Part shown: in pieces, positions 1 to 12,071 of the stretch
Numbering within the stretch: the first letter of the stretch is position 1
Layout of the letters: every line of letters starts with the position of its first letter
NCBI GenBank assembly: GCA_001664005.1
Contig: CP016093.1
Location: forward strand, 3,463,031-3,527,030
Direction of reading: 5' to 3'
Length of the DNA: 64,000 nt
From: Rhizobiales bacterium NRL2
GTDB lineage: Bacteria; Pseudomonadota; Alphaproteobacteria; Minwuiales; Minwuiaceae
Translations under genes and position numbers: made by a program
The notes under the pieces: model-generated
Database searches by the model: none
Told to the model about the DNA's origin: nothing
Seen by the model: the letters and a program-made list of their open reading frames with translations, nothing else

Positions 1-2
1 AC

Positions 3-1035
<1,033 letters not shown>

Positions 1036-1043
1036 TTTGGAGC

Positions 1044-1541
1044 GTGGAACGCGACGAACCTGATCTGGAAGTCTGGCGCGTCGAAGTCCGAGCCGGCAAA
1101 AAGCATTTGAAAGACGTCTACAACATCCGAACGCTGGACGACTTTGAAAATAGCATTGGCGATACAATATTAAACAACCTGAACCACATCCGATACGTGT
1201 CCGAAGTCCAAACTGATAGCAATATTACTCGCCGCACTCTTCATCCAATATGGCAATCTGCACTCAAAGCCGCGTCAGGCAACTTACTCGAACACCAATC
1301 TGGACTCACATCGGATCAAATTCGCCATGTTGACAGAACCGGGACCGCATCTCGATATGAGCAGCAAACCATCGGTAACGCAATCGGACTCGCACTATCC
1401 CTCGGAATAAGTTCCACCAACCTGGACGCACTTCACCCAGATCTCATCGCCAATCGCCTGCGTCGGATAATAAGAAACGACAAAACGTCATTTACAAACG
1501 CTGCAAATCGCGCTGCCAACCGCCTTCATTTTAAGAACTAG
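1044..1541 (+). CDS. Hypothetical protein, probably a 5'-truncated gene of the integrated cassette
   Basis: A 165-codon frame opens at GTG 1044, only 9 bp past the 45-bp repeat; the in-frame codon at 1032-1034, inside the repeat, is a stop. No Shine-Dalgarno sequence is evident, and the protein starts abruptly in what looks like mid-domain (EVWRVEVRAGKKHLKD). A missing N-terminus removed at the att junction is therefore likely. The text is faintly reminiscent of C-terminal parts of plasmid or ICE replication/mobilisation proteins, but I cannot assign it. The region is clearly AT-richer than the chromosome to the right. It converges on the radical SAM gene and overlaps its 3' end by 11 bp. Confidence 0.5.
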   Translation: MERDEPDLEVWRVEVRAGKKHLKDVYNIRTLDDFENSIGDTILNNLNHIRYVSEVQTDSNITRRTLHPIWQSALKAASGNLLEHQSGLTSDQIRHVDRTGTASRYEQQTIGNAIGLALSLGISSTNLDALHPDLIANRLRRIIRNDKTSFTNAANRAANRLHFKN

Positions 1542-2748
1542 GGCCATCCTCATAACTGTAAATCTTGTTTCCATTATCATCCAATTTCCCTGTATCCATG
1601 ACTTTCCAAAAACTAGTTGGGCCACCGCGCCAAGAAGGAGCATTCCACTTTTTCTTCAAAAAGTCTAACCACCTATCTGATCCGCTCGCTGCCGGACCCA
1701 GATTCGACCGGGAACGCGAATTCAAATAATTGTCTAACGAATATTCCGACAACCTATTTTCCTCGACAATAAATCTCATGTCTTTCAACCATTTTGACCG
1801 CCGCAATATACCTAGCAAGTTGGTATCAAAAAAACTAGCTTCTCTCAAAAACAGATCCGCGCCATTACAGCATGACAAGAATTCATTGCGAAGCAAAAAT
1901 TCATTATCTGCATGTCCATAGTGAATATCATGACTTCTGGCTACTTCGCACAAATAATCGTGGCCTGATATTTTTTCTTCTGCCGGCAAAATAAATTCTC
2001 GACCATTCCGTGTCGCGCTATGCAGTTTAAAATATTCACGAATATTTGGCAGCTCCCTATCAAGAATTTTTGCTTGCGTAGTTACTCTTTCCATCGGGAG
2101 CTTGAGATACTCTACAGAAACATGGCGGACCCCAACTCTAGCAGCCTGAAGCATCAATCTCTCAGCGCTCTCCTCATGCCCTGGAATTAAGGGTTGGAGC
2201 CGCGCTGAAATTGGAACGCCCACACTGGCCAAGGCCTCAATCGCCGACAGACGGCAAGCCAGATCCCCTACACCGGCCTCAAGTCTCTGTGCCAGCTGTG
2301 GCTCCGCACCAGTAAAGGACACTCGTATGTAAAAATTTCCACGTTGCAACACATCTACATACTCGGTCATTCCAAAAATCGAGCCTTTTGTGCTAATTAT
2401 CGTCGGATAATCGAACTTTTTAAGAATTTCTAGCAAATATAGGGAGATTCTATGCTCTAATTCCCACTCGCTAAAAGGGTCTGTCATTCCACCGAATTGA
2501 ATAGGAATTCTATTCATTAAGAAATAATCTAATGCACTATTTATTTCTCCCCTTGATACACGCTCTAATCGAGCCCTTAAAGAGTCTGGATTTGCCATTT
2601 TCAACTTGGTATTCGGGAAATTTCCCCCTCTACTTTTGGCGAAACAATAAACACAGCCAAATTGACATGCATTATAGGAGTCTAAACGCAGGGGCGTACT
2701 ACAAAAAGGCAATTGACTCGTAACCGATAAGTAATATTTATAGCTCAT
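1531..2748 (-). CDS. Radical SAM protein, SPL/DNA-photolyase-like superfamily
   Basis: A 405-aa protein with the radical SAM cluster motif C28-x3-C32-x2-C35 (ACQFGCVYC) that binds [4Fe-4S] and S-adenosylmethionine. It then shows elements typical of the COG1533-like group: GGMTDPFSEWE at 86-96, ISTKG near 118-122, VSFTGAEPQ near 143-151 and RLQPLIPG at 183-190. The last 150 residues carry further cysteines (C267 and the pair C293-C294) beside a GHADNEF motif, perhaps a second metal site. It is translated after the membrane protein gene, whose stop overlaps this ATG by 4 nt, so the two are coupled. Base composition is AT-rich and the operon lies between two copies of the tRNA-fMet 3' half, so it is imported. 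The substrate is unknown; DNA repair, nucleotide modification or defence are all open. Confidence 0.8.
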   Translation of the reverse strand: MSYKYYLSVTSQLPFCSTPLRLDSYNACQFGCVYCFAKSRGGNFPNTKLKMANPDSLRARLERVSRGEINSALDYFLMNRIPIQFGGMTDPFSEWELEHRISLYLLEILKKFDYPTIISTKGSIFGMTEYVDVLQRGNFYIRVSFTGAEPQLAQRLEAGVGDLACRLSAIEALASVGVPISARLQPLIPGHEESAERLMLQAARVGVRHVSVEYLKLPMERVTTQAKILDRELPNIREYFKLHSATRNGREFILPAEEKISGHDYLCEVARSHDIHYGHADNEFLLRNEFLSCCNGADLFLREASFFDTNLLGILRRSKWLKDMRFIVEENRLSEYSLDNYLNSRSRSNLGPAASGSDRWLDFLKKKWNAPSWRGGPTSFWKVMDTGKLDDNGNKIYSYEDGPSS

Positions 2749-3521
2749 CTATTCATCATAAAATACTGTATTATTGAGTATATGTTCTGTCCGACTGCAA
2801 ACGCAAATAACAACACCGCTACGACCATAAGAATCCAAACTAAATTACGTGATATCGGCCTACTTCCAGACAGCTTTCCAAACAATTCCCAAAATATATC
2901 TCCAACAACATCATCTTTTTCCCCCTCCTTTAAGCACACCTCATAGCTACTCGACAGTGTGCCGAAAACCCAAACAGTCCCCCGTTTCGCGACTACAGGC
3001 TCGTGGCTAAAATTACCCACTTTTGGGATAGAATCTAGCGGTTTTGCGTATCCTTTGGCCTTCAGTCTCTCCAACAATCCCTTTTTATCGCCAATAATCT
3101 GCCATGCATAATATAATTCCCAAACAATCCAACGAGCAGAATGCTTGCTTTCTGAATATATTCCATAACTACCATACTTTTTTATGAAACCAGGACATCT
3201 AATAACATAAATTGAAAGGGACATAGCATATAGAAAAGATGATAACCATAATATTTCCCAGTTAAATGGAAGTGTTGTCTTAATAGTATGGGCGTTATTA
3301 GAAATTAATATCTGAATTTCTGAAGGAATCTCAGATAGTGCGTGGGCAACAATTGGAACAAGGGCAAACCACGACACAAAAAAACGAATCGCAGATAGTT
3401 TGAAAAAGGCAGCCAGTTCCTGCCAGTGACCGCGAACCCTTGTCCACTGTTCCCAAATAGTCGTAATTTGCTGGCAAACATTAATCATTTGGAGGACGTT
3501 TCGATCTCTCTCAATCCACAT
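2745..3521 (-). CDS. Unknown membrane protein, partner of the radical SAM gene
   Basis: A 258-aa protein I do not recognise. Hydrophobic segments are visible at about 43-62, 87-107 and 227-250, with a mostly soluble, charged stretch of about 115 residues between the second and third. The C-terminus is a short tail (YFMMNR) straight after the last membrane segment. It is the first gene of a two-gene AT-rich operon; its TGA overlaps the radical SAM ATG. No strong Shine-Dalgarno precedes ATG 3521, and ATG 3488 is an alternative start that leaves the membrane segments intact. The coupling suggests that both proteins act in one pathway, perhaps with the radical SAM enzyme at the membrane. Function is unknown. 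Confidence 0.65.
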   Translation of the reverse strand: MWIERDRNVLQMINVCQQITTIWEQWTRVRGHWQELAAFFKLSAIRFFVSWFALVPIVAHALSEIPSEIQILISNNAHTIKTTLPFNWEILWLSSFLYAMSLSIYVIRCPGFIKKYGSYGIYSESKHSARWIVWELYYAWQIIGDKKGLLERLKAKGYAKPLDSIPKVGNFSHEPVVAKRGTVWVFGTLSSSYEVCLKEGEKDDVVGDIFWELFGKLSGSRPISRNLVWILMVVAVLLFAFAVGQNIYSIIQYFMMNR

Positions 3522-3778: not shown

Positions 3779-3782
3779 ATTG

Positions 3783-3860
<78 letters not shown>

Positions 3861-8635: not shown

Positions 8636-9244
8636 ATGAACGAACGCGCCAACGATTATCCGATTCGCCGCCGCGAACTGGCCGCCGCCATCATGGCCGA
8701 CAACCCGGACGCCCTGTTTATCGCCGGACTCGGCGCCACGGCCTGGGACCTGACGGCTGCAGGCGACCGGCCGACGACCTTTCCGCTGTGGGGCGCGATG
8801 GGCGGCGCGGCGGCGATGGGGCTGGGTCTCGCCCTGGCCCAGCCGGACAGGCGCGTCATCGTTGTCACCGGCGACGGCGAGCAGCTCATGGGTCTGGGGG
8901 CGCTGGCGACGATCGCCGTGCAGCGGCCCGCCAACCTGGCCGTCGTTGTCTTCGACAACGAATCCTATGGCGAGACCGGCATGCAGGCGACCCACACCGC
9001 CGCCGGGGTGGACCTCGCCGGCGTGGCCCGCGCCGCGGGCTTCCCTCTGGTGCGGACGGCGGCGACGCCCGAGGACGCCCGGGCGGTGCTGCCCGACATC
9101 CGGGCGGGCCGCGGCCCGGTCTTCGCAGCGTTCAAGGTGCGCGCCGAAGTTCTGCCCTTCGCCCTGCCGCCCAAGGACGGCGCCTGGTTGAAGGACCGCT
9201 TCCGCCGCGCGCTGCTGGGTCCGGCCGCCGTGGGCGAGACGTGA
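8636..9244 (+). CDS. ThDP decarboxylase beta subunit (sulfopyruvate/phosphonopyruvate decarboxylase type)
   Basis: 202 aa, the diphosphate-binding half of the split enzyme. The ThDP motif begins at GDGEQLMGLGALATIA and ends about 28 residues later with the Asn in FDNESYG; GAMGGAAAMGLGLALAQP precedes it. It forms one transcription unit with the alpha subunit (4-bp gap). An active site forms where the alpha and beta chains meet. A fusion ancestor is common in this family, but here the two halves are separate. Confidence 0.87.
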   Translation: MNERANDYPIRRRELAAAIMADNPDALFIAGLGATAWDLTAAGDRPTTFPLWGAMGGAAAMGLGLALAQPDRRVIVVTGDGEQLMGLGALATIAVQRPANLAVVVFDNESYGETGMQATHTAAGVDLAGVARAAGFPLVRTAATPEDARAVLPDIRAGRGPVFAAFKVRAEVLPFALPPKDGAWLKDRFRRALLGPAAVGET

Positions 9245-9329
9245 CCGCGGCGACAGCCGCAGCCCCTTGGCGCATCGGCGCACTGCCGTTAGTTTCGGCG
9301 CGATTTCCCGGAACGGACAAGAGAGCATC

Positions 9330-11162
9330 GTGAGCGGCGACAAGGACGACAAGAGCGGGCGCCCGAAGACGCGGAAGATCGGCGCGCTCAAGCAACTCTG
9401 GCCCTTCGCCAGACGCTACAAGGTGCTCATCGGCTTTGCCGGCTTTGCGCTGGTGGGCGCCGCGGGCGCGACGCTGGCAATCGGGCAGGCCGTCCGCCGC
9501 ATGGTCGACTACGGCTTCGGCGGTCCCGGCGATGCCCCCGCCGGCTATCTGGACGAGTATTTCCTAGCGCTGTTCGGCGTCTTCGCGCTGCTGGCGGCCT
9601 TCACCTTCGCGCGCTACTGGTCGGTGACCTGGCTGGGTGAGCGGATGGTCGCCGACATCCGCGACGCGGTCTACCGCCACGTGCTCAGGCTGGATCCGGC
9701 CTTCTTCGAGAACACCAAGACCGGCGAGGTGATGAGCCGTCTCACGGTCGACACGGAGCTGATCCAGACCGTCGTCGGGTCCAGCGCATCCATGGCTCTG
9801 CGCAACCTGCTGATGTTCATCGGCGGCCTGGCGATGCTGATCGTCACCAGCCCGAAGCTCGCCGGCATGGTGCTGGCCATCGTGCCGATCGTGATCATCC
9901 CCATCATCTTCTTCGGCCGCCGCCTGCGCGGTCTCTCCAGAACCAGCCAGGACCGGGTCGCCGCCGTCAACGCCCGCGCCGAGGAAAGCCTGAACGCGGT
10001 GCAGACGGTCCAGGCCTTCACCCAGGAAGCCTATGAGGAGAAGCGGTTCTCCCAGGCTGTCAGCGACACGCTCACGGTGGCGCGCAAGCGCATCCACGTA
10101 CGCGCCTGGCTGACCGCGGTGGTGATCCTGCTGATCTTCGGCGCCATCGACGTGGTGCTCTGGCTCGGCGCGACGGACGTGGCGACCGGCGCCATGACCT
10201 CGGGCGAGCTGACCGCCTTCGTCTTCTACGCCATCGTCGTCGCCGGCTCGGTCGGCACGCTCTCGGAGATGTGGGGCGATCTGCAGCGCGCCGCCGGGGC
10301 AACCGAACGGCTGATGGAACTGCTCACCGTGAACGCCTCGATTGCGGTGCCCGAAAATCCAGTGCCCCTGCCGGAGCGCTCGGAGGGCCGGATCGAGTTC
10401 GACAATGTCGTCTTCCGCTATCCCTCGCGCCCGGAGATCGCCGCACTGGACGGCTTCAGCCTGGCGGTGAGCCCGGGCGAGAAGGTCGCGATCGTCGGCC
10501 CCAGCGGCGCCGGCAAGTCCACGGTCTTCCAGTTGATGCTGCGGTTCTACGACGCCGAGGCGGGGCGCATCCTGGTCGACGGCGCCGACATCATGCAGGC
10601 GGACCCGGTGGAAGTCCGCCGCCGCTACGGCCTGGTCGCCCAGGATCCGGTGATGTTCGCGGCCACGGCCATGGAGAACATCCGTTATGGCCGACCCGAG
10701 GCGAGCAACGAGGAGGTCTTCCGCGCGGCACAGGCCGCCGGCGCGGCGGAGTTTCTGGACCGCCTGCCGGAAGGCTATGACACGCCGCTGGGCGAGCGGG
10801 GCCAGCGTCTCTCGGGCGGCCAGCGCCAGCGCATCGCCATCGCGCGGGCGCTGCTGCGCGATCCCTCGATCCTGCTGCTCGACGAAGCCACCTCCGCCCT
10901 CGACGCCGAATCGGAACGCATGGTGCAGGGCGCGCTGGAACTGCTGATGCAGGGCCGCACCACGCTGGTGATCGCCCATCGCCTCGCCACGGTGCTGAAG
11001 GCCGACCGCATCATCGTCATGGACCAGGGCCGCGTGGTCGCCTCCGGTACGCACAAGGAACTGATGGCCCAGGAAGGGCTCTACGCCCGTCTGGCGAAAC
11101 TTCAGTTCGACACCGGCCGCGACGCCCTCGGCGCCGAGCAGCCGGCCGATGCGGCCGAGTAG
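9330..11162 (+). CDS. ABC half-transporter, fused permease/ATPase (ABCB/MsbA-like exporter)
   Basis: About 610 aa. GTG 9330 is preferred over the ATG 63 bp upstream because that extension reads as non-coding and the protein then opens with a charged leader before LKQLWPF. An N-terminal domain with about six membrane segments (residues 25-330) is followed by a nucleotide-binding domain with Walker A GPSGAGKS, signature LSGGQRQR, Walker B ILLLDEATSALD and the switch His in IAHRLAT. It is expected to work as a homodimer in the inner membrane, exporting lipid or hydrophobic compounds. The downstream L,D-transpeptidase-like gene overlaps its 3' end by 14 bp. Confidence 0.92.
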   Translation: MSGDKDDKSGRPKTRKIGALKQLWPFARRYKVLIGFAGFALVGAAGATLAIGQAVRRMVDYGFGGPGDAPAGYLDEYFLALFGVFALLAAFTFARYWSVTWLGERMVADIRDAVYRHVLRLDPAFFENTKTGEVMSRLTVDTELIQTVVGSSASMALRNLLMFIGGLAMLIVTSPKLAGMVLAIVPIVIIPIIFFGRRLRGLSRTSQDRVAAVNARAEESLNAVQTVQAFTQEAYEEKRFSQAVSDTLTVARKRIHVRAWLTAVVILLIFGAIDVVLWLGATDVATGAMTSGELTAFVFYAIVVAGSVGTLSEMWGDLQRAAGATERLMELLTVNASIAVPENPVPLPERSEGRIEFDNVVFRYPSRPEIAALDGFSLAVSPGEKVAIVGPSGAGKSTVFQLMLRFYDAEAGRILVDGADIMQADPVEVRRRYGLVAQDPVMFAATAMENIRYGRPEASNEEVFRAAQAAGAAEFLDRLPEGYDTPLGERGQRLSGGQRQRIAIARALLRDPSILLLDEATSALDAESERMVQGALELLMQGRTTLVIAHRLATVLKADRIIVMDQGRVVASGTHKELMAQEGLYARLAKLQFDTGRDALGAEQPADAAE

Positions 11163-11745
11163 GCGGCCCCGGATCTTCCACGTCTTCGCCGACGGATTCA
11201 TGATCGTGGACGGTCGCCGCCTGCCCTGCGCCCTGGGCCGCGGCGGCGTCCGGACCGACAAGCGCGAGGGCGACGGCGCGACGCCGGCGGGCCTGTTCCC
11301 CCTGCGCTGCGTGCACTATCGCACGCACCGCGCCGGGACGCCGCTCACCGCGCTGTCCCGCCAGCCGATCCTGCGCAGCCATGGCTGGTGCGACGATCCC
11401 GCCTCCCCGCTCTACAACCGGCTCGTCCGGCTGCCCTTCCCGGCCCGCCACGAACGGCTCTGGCGGCAGGACAGGCTCTACGACGCCCTTGTCACGATCG
11501 GCCACAACGACCGTCCCGCCCGACCGGGGCGGGGCAGCGCGGTCTTCATCCATATAATGCATCCCGAAGGGGAGCCCACCGATGGCTGCGTGGCGCTGCG
11601 GCCCCCCGACATGCGCTGGCTGCTCCGGCGGACGAAGCCCGGCGATATGGTGCGCATCGCGCCGCCGGAGCGGAAATCGCCCGGCCTGCCGCTACGGCAG
11701 GACTTGCGGAAGCGCCGGCCTTGTGCTGGCGTTGCGATTAACTGA
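11149..11745 (+). CDS. L,D-transpeptidase (YkuD-domain) family protein
   Basis: 198 aa. The catalytic region reads FIHIMHPEGEPTDGCVAL, matching the YkuD pattern of a histidine followed by S/T-x-G-C-V, with the Cys as nucleophile. An earlier conserved stretch, GDGATPAGLFPL, is typical of the DUF-type L,D-transpeptidase relatives. Members crosslink peptidoglycan or attach proteins to it, but this subfamily often lacks a clear signal peptide, as here, so periplasmic action is not assured. It overlaps the preceding ABC gene by 14 bp, so the two are probably co-transcribed. Confidence 0.8.
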   Translation: MRPSRRPRIFHVFADGFMIVDGRRLPCALGRGGVRTDKREGDGATPAGLFPLRCVHYRTHRAGTPLTALSRQPILRSHGWCDDPASPLYNRLVRLPFPARHERLWRQDRLYDALVTIGHNDRPARPGRGSAVFIHIMHPEGEPTDGCVALRPPDMRWLLRRTKPGDMVRIAPPERKSPGLPLRQDLRKRRPCAGVAIN

Positions 11746-11768
11746 CCGGCATTCAGCAGGAGATGACA

Positions 11769-12071
11769 ATGGCTACGCTGGAAGAGATCACCGAGGGCAT
11801 GCGTCAGCGGGTAGGCGACGATTCGGGTCTCGACGCCACGCTGAAGTTCGATTTCGGCGATGACGGGGTGATCTATGTCGACGGCGAATCCACGCCGAAC
11901 ACCGTCTCCAACGAGGACAAGGAGGCCGACTGCACCATGAAGATCTCCAAGGAGAACTTCCTGAAGATGGTGAACGGCGAACTCGATGGCACCACCGCCT
12001 TCATGATGGGCAAGCTGAAGATCGAGGGCAACATGGGCGTGGCGATGAAATTGCAGAGCGTCCTGAAATAG
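11769..12071 (+). CDS. SCP2 sterol-binding domain protein
   Basis: About 100 aa, one SCP2 domain: a helical opening (LEEITEGMRQRV), a beta strand with KFDFGDDGVIYVDG, DCTMKISKENFLKMVNGEL, then TTAFMMGKLKIEGNMGVAMKL. Such proteins bind fatty acyl chains or sterol-like lipids in a hydrophobic tunnel. AGGAG at 11758-11762 abuts an ATG at 11763 but is well placed for ATG 11769, which I use. A standalone domain of this length is normal in Alphaproteobacteria. Confidence 0.9.
   Translation: MATLEEITEGMRQRVGDDSGLDATLKFDFGDDGVIYVDGESTPNTVSNEDKEADCTMKISKENFLKMVNGELDGTTAFMMGKLKIEGNMGVAMKLQSVLK

Follow-up and report, generated by a model that had tools for sequence, protein, structure and literature searches.

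Among radical SAM enzymes with a role in immunity, viperin is to our knowledge the best known, and a dedicated membrane partner is not known to be among its features. In spore photoproduct lyase (SPL), C140 is the hydrogen donor and has a catalytic role, while SuiB, SkfB and anSME have a two-gene layout of a radical SAM maturase and a partner substrate. Here we describe two adjacent genes of Rhizobiales bacterium NRL2, encoding a membrane protein and a radical SAM protein, which probably form an undescribed two-gene, membrane-bound radical SAM module directed against phages, a function that we infer from inheritance, distribution and surroundings.

The window, meaning the whole stretch of DNA that was analysed, has 64,000 nt (CP016093.1:3,463,031-3,527,030), and positions are window positions unless a locus is named (Table 1). 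In the pair the membrane gene comes first and the radical SAM gene next, and the two overlap by four nucleotides (ATGA at 2745-2748). Their GC content is 41.6%, against 67.7% in the remaining window, so the overlap and the AT-richness reported in the preliminary description of this DNA are both present.

The likeness to prokaryotic viperin (pVip) would be that of a radical SAM enzyme in defence, and fold matches to viperin reach Z of about 12-13. Membership in this family was rejected (NF038283 11.1 bits, E 0.16, cut-off 180), and pVip was the only PADLOC match of the window pair, at 11.6 bits and E 0.034. SPL is the best fold match in the PDB, whereas the window protein has no counterpart of C140, carries about 125 extra C-terminal residues and has a membrane partner. 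The maturases SuiB, SkfB and anSME are fold matches of the second tier; they differ from the pair, in which the partner is a membrane protein of 241-275 aa across loci and not a short peptide, and no SPASM model is matched. The nearest curated sequence families are PA0069 (NF033668) and Rv2578c (NF038135), which cover residues about 10-250 and have the same CxxxCxxC core; membership in Rv2578c was rejected at 47.3 bits against a cut-off of 430. Homologues that are PA0069-like by inference occur widely, in 58 of 398 genomes of the phylum besides the two carriers, whereas the pair is rare. No named two-gene system of this kind was found in the model libraries searched or in the openly searchable literature (few subscription papers, no preprints), which is consistent with what had been said of the pair before.

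Table 1. Positions of the gene pair and of the features at its integration site in the window.
Feature	Position	Strand	Basis
Recombinase, C-terminal part	1..1034	+	Zn_ribbon_recom 55.3 bits; serine type by reading
Direct repeat, left copy (copies part of tRNA-Met), 49 nt, 1 mismatch	987..1035		Repeat search
165-aa ORF between left repeat and pair	1044..1541	+	Pfam scan, plasmid search
Radical SAM protein, 405 aa, SPL-like fold	1531..2748	-	ORF, Pfam, fold search
Three-helix membrane protein, 258 aa	2745..3521	-	ORF, hydrophobic segments
Direct repeat, right copy, extends into tRNA-Met gene	3780..3828		Repeat search
tRNA-Met (CAT), integration site	3784..3860	-	tRNA call; occupant differs in relative G291

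The radical SAM protein and its membrane partner

The Pfam Radical_SAM model matched residues 25-194 of the window protein with 36.4 bits (cut-off 29.5), and the CxxxCxxC motif (C28, C32 and C35) was invariant in the six pair-type sequences aligned and present in 32 of 32 more distant homologues. With the domain above cut-off and this motif, the protein belongs to the radical SAM superfamily. In the fold search with its structure model (pLDDT 75, pTM 0.75), the top six rows were all SPL (Z 15.4-15.8 over 228-235 residues, rmsd 3.1-3.2, TM-score by target 0.49-0.50), which places the radical SAM domain in the SPL-like fold, as had been read from the letters before. The second tier comprised NifB (Z 14.2), SuiB (Z 13.8), Mmp10 (Z 12.9), SkfB (Z 12.7) and viperin (Z 12.7). 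We predict that the second protein of the pair is a radical SAM enzyme of the SPL fold which carries a [4Fe-4S]/SAM site. There is no cysteine between residues 36 and 164, so that C140 of SPL, which is named in the PDB titles of C140 mutants, has no plausible counterpart, as judged from the sequence and not from a residue-level superposition. SPASM and Twitch models of Pfam and NCBIfam gave no match. Among solved structures, the single window sequence found no homologue at E 1, and the profile found one marginal match (8vpo, E 0.02). The radical SAM protein of one further locus (L055:1480-2721) showed a weak match to PADLOC RTasDUF1848 (RT-associated DUF1848, DRT; E 0.0012, 16.7 bits), and the window protein matched Pfam DUF1848 at E 0.15.

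An extra C-terminal cysteine cluster, C267 with C293-C294, had been proposed in the preliminary description. Its second half stood: C293-C294 is kept in five pair-type sequences, the sixth (L052) ending before this position. C267 varies among the pair-type sequences, and C16, which had not been named, is kept in all six; the check was repeated on four full-length pair-type sequences. Among the 32 more distant homologues aligned, which are PA0069-like by inference and without a model scan, a cysteine is present at the C16 column in 0, at the C293 column in 0 and at the C294 column in 10, unlike the pair type. Therefore C294 is not special to the pair, and C16 and C293 are the distinctive residues. 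In the model, residues 1-19, 31-47 and 292-303 score below 50 pLDDT; C16 and C293-C294 fall in these low-confidence parts, so a second cluster is a guess, and the three cysteines could hold such a cluster or could bind the substrate.

The membrane protein has hydrophobic segments at residues 44-62, 89-107 and 226-244. All three are common to the five homologues, and in the L055 protein a fourth one follows near the end. The window protein was matched by no Pfam, NCBIfam or PADLOC model, in agreement with its earlier description as an unrecognised three-helix membrane protein. Its structure model (pLDDT 74.6, pTM 0.64) found nothing at E 0.001 with Foldseek, and the membrane profile found nothing below E 0.11 among solved structures. 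VIA fold matches reached Z 7.7 and were not used, because rows such as TRPV3, BAR domains and pannexins indicate a helical-bundle background.

The long segment between helices 2 and 3 contains 16-22 lysine and arginine residues and the short loop 0-1, therefore residues about 108-225 are probably cytoplasmic; this signal is limited in that the long segment is simply longer and that in L052 it has equally many acidic residues. Within it lies the motif H127-S128-x-R130-W131-x-x-W134-E135-x-Y137 (HSxRWxxWExY), invariant in the five homologues, and 11 of the 25 invariant residues of the protein are concentrated in the 32 residues 109-140. The first protein of the pair is predicted to be an inner-membrane protein in which some 115 residues form a cytoplasmic domain that carries this motif.

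Co-inheritance and distribution of the pair

The search for further loci started from the radical SAM side only (protein or alignment), which leaves the partner free of selection; relatives were accepted when clearly closer than the PA0069-like background. Five were found, four alphaproteobacterial and one acidobacterial: Nitratireductor sp. XY-223 (L049, also reached as G875 and G948), Mesorhizobium sp. YM1C-6-2 (L050, genome G599), Rhizobiales bacterium isolate R129_N (L051), a Candidatus Sulfotelmatobacter MAG of the Acidobacteriota (L052), and genome G853 in the G599 family (L055/L056). Rare adjacency of the two genes elsewhere, or a common housekeeping gene usually found alone, would speak against a coupled unit; neither was observed. 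The membrane gene lies immediately upstream of the radical SAM gene in all six loci, and the pair is rare. The two genes meet in ATGA in the window, L050 and L052, overlap by 1 nt in L049 and abut in L055. Two of the six loci are incomplete: in L051 the membrane ORF is broken in two and the radical SAM gene runs to the contig end, and in L052 the radical SAM ORF ends after 129 aa near the contig end.

FastTree trees of both genes (six taxa, L051 and L052 partial) had the same unrooted topology. All three internal splits were common, with supports of 0.917-0.997, and such agreement by chance corresponds to 1 in 105 six-taxon topologies. A Mantel co-divergence test on the distance matrices was not significant (r 0.385, reached by 56 of 720 permutations). 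No membrane gene without its partner was found in the scans made: the membrane profile detected the known carrier only in 199 genomes of the G599 order, and the single membrane sequence detected itself in 289 genomes of the class, together with three short weak matches (E 0.002-0.007, 52-90 residues) which look like chance and were dropped. That the pair is a co-inherited, tightly coupled two-gene unit is well supported by these data.

The pair is very rare and patchy in its distribution. At a threshold of 1e-25 it was found in 1 of 289 genomes of the class, which is the window's own copy. At full length it was found in 2 of 398 genomes of the phylum (the window genome and G599), the further 58 genomes and a second match in the window genome being 25-35% identical over part of the radical SAM protein. 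The G599 family gave 3 of 297, the genera of two carriers 1 of 33 and 1 of 4, and the phylum of L052 only the known carrier among 247. A scan of the genome_contigs collection returned four loci, a count that is too low because the scan needs exact peptide patterns.

No copy was confirmed in viral contigs scanned with five alignments and two single proteins. The membrane protein had no match in plasmids (three homologues as queries) or in phages (window protein as query); sequenced mobile elements thus do not carry it often. For the radical SAM core, the window protein matched 23 plasmid records and the L055 protein 10, and three phage records matched as well; all were below 60% identity and none covered 80% of the query, hence they were not counted as the pair.

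Integration site and neighbouring defence genes

The 49-nt repeat copies part of tRNA-Met, so that the pair and one small ORF fill a 2.7-kb segment between attachment-like repeats. The recombinase frame apparently starts left of the window (L017:19378), and its end falls inside the left repeat. The small ORF of 165 aa had four plasmid matches with 26-35% identity, including hypothetical proteins on large alphaproteobacterial replicons, one of which is encoded about 1 kb away from the gene of a replication initiator; the ORF is probably a remnant of a mobile element. In the relative G291, whose right flank is 95% identical, other sequence occupies the same tRNA-Met, and ORFs resembling ParA and VirD4/TraG were recognised there by reading. 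The tRNA-Met thus looks like an integration hot spot, and the coupled operon placed there by the preliminary description is borne out by the partner at every locus and by the different, mobile-element-like ORFs of this sister genome.

About 35 kb directly left of the window is bounded by a 20-nt exact repeat match (L018:5608-5627) and the left repeat. Eight of the 13 proteins scanned in this region match PADLOC (7/9 and 1/4), among them DrmD (821 bits) and DpdE (663 bits), while in a control 1 of 10 host genes, an ABC-type protein, matched at E 1e-5; the flanking ORFs scanned were the analyst's choice and the PADLOC matches include generic domains. The island (L017:60-15305 and L018:5779-17124) also contains DruE-like, DrmMI/type IIG-like, LmuB-like, HNH, McrB/McrC-like (by sequence reading) and PD-Lambda-2_B-like genes. 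As an observation apart from the pair, DrmD, DpdE and DruE-like genes occurring together in one island may represent an unusual DISARM/Dpd/Druantia hybrid.

In G853 a Pycsar-type operon (PycC 613, E1-E2 704 and PycTIR 304 bits) stands some 0.6 kb from the pair, and seven of nine flanking proteins match PADLOC. A nucleoside 2-deoxyribosyltransferase-like gene (L056:8883-9362) is located between this operon and the pair; it and the radical SAM gene are convergent and share 4 nt. In L050 the pair is part of an AT-rich stretch flanked by a Phd/PIN toxin-antitoxin pair and uvrA (by reading); here the two genes are the only substantial ORFs, the others overlapping them. The spot beside uvrA (L050:8311-14187) was seen to vary within the genus. 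Congener G804 (L081) has there a RelA/SpoT-domain gene matching the defence candidate PDC-S33 (330 bits) and an unrecognised 210-aa ORF, G723 (L082) has an unrecognised 487-aa ORF, and G864 (L083) has neither a toxin-antitoxin pair nor a recognisable insert.

Defence surroundings, as island or exchange site, were therefore counted at three of the six loci (window, L056 and the L050 site; raw counts). Neighbours at the other three were weak or none: in L049 the pair adjoins an HNH gene that weakly matches type IV restriction, in L052 a DUF4145 protein about 6 kb off is weakly similar to PD-T7-4, and in L051 the pair adjoins uvrB (Pfam) and no defence neighbour was seen. Of the pair proteins themselves, the window pair, the L050 pair, the L052 and L055 membrane proteins and the L055 radical SAM protein were compared with PADLOC, and none had a convincing match to a known anti-phage system; the L050 pair and the L052 and L055 membrane proteins had none at all.

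Proposed function and rival explanations

Co-inheritance, horizontally patchy distribution and defence surroundings at half of the loci make together the pattern of an undescribed defence-type cassette. We consider the chances about even that the pair is a mobile two-gene accessory module, most likely acting against phages or plasmids. The role in phage defence had been a guess before, and the defence neighbourhoods strengthen it as a candidate role. Repair and nucleotide modification had been guessed alongside it, and either may apply. The radical SAM enzyme would dock on the cytoplasmic domain of the membrane protein and act at the membrane, and its radical chemistry would either activate the membrane protein or yield a product which the membrane protein uses. 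On infection, phage growth might then be blocked or the membrane damaged. Two features, the one-to-one pairing of the proteins and the clustering of invariant residues in the motif, speak for a reaction at or on the membrane protein.

A bolder version, which we regard as rather unlikely, is that the two proteins work as one machine of an undescribed immune class, in which infection-triggered radical chemistry on the partner, or its product, makes the partner the effector. Such radical-SAM-gated membrane immunity would be distinct from viperin. The known defence chemistry of bacteria would be broadened by another radical SAM immune module that is unrelated to viperin and works together with a membrane protein. 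The pair is compact (2 kb), is found in Alphaproteobacteria and Acidobacteriota, and is simple to clone and assay in laboratory strains.

The rival that survives best, and which we hold as a tentative possibility, is that the enzyme is a maturase which modifies HSxRWxxWExY of the membrane protein post-translationally, the modified protein then acting as a pore, a sensor, an exclusion factor or a bacteriocin-like product. The partner gene precedes the enzyme gene, and the two overlap or abut at each of the five junctions that could be read; this points to a maturase, as do the clustering of invariant residues around this motif, the peptide-modifying SuiB, Mmp10 and SkfB in the second fold tier, and C16 and C293, conserved in the pair type and missing at those columns in all 32 distant homologues. 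However, NifB and viperin, which do not modify peptides, match the fold as well or better, SPASM/Twitch models are not matched, and the motif is equally possible as a docking site.

The pair might also serve the integrative element itself, for example by exclusion of competing elements, with no benefit to the host. Its place between attachment-like repeats in the window, together with a recombinase and a possible mobile-element remnant, is in favour of this. In L050, however, no other substantial ORF shares the AT-rich stretch with the pair, and looking for repeats in 8700-11900 gave no flanking repeat pair resembling attachment sites. The viral contigs, plasmids and phages scanned gave no copy of the pair; we regard this explanation as improbable.

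A little less credit still is given to a DNA-repair or stress-tolerance cassette, in which a membrane-tethered lesion-reversing enzyme would be a relative of SPL. The best fold match is SPL, and two of the six copies adjoin uvr genes (uvrA in L050, uvrB in L051), for which chance, a hot spot or function are all possible explanations; this keeps repair alive as a minor rival. But C140 has no plausible counterpart, and a membrane protein would be an unusual partner in DNA repair. The spot beside uvrA also varies, being occupied by a defence candidate in a congener, and the uvr adjacency was spotted post hoc.

Finally, it is highly improbable that the radical SAM gene is just a duplicated member of the PA0069 housekeeping family with an unrelated membrane gene next to it: rSAM_PA0069 is indeed the closest curated model, but membership was rejected at 71.9 bits against a cut-off of 360, the partner is present in all six loci, and the window genome and the three other carriers tested each own a second, more distant homologue which is PA0069-like by similarity.
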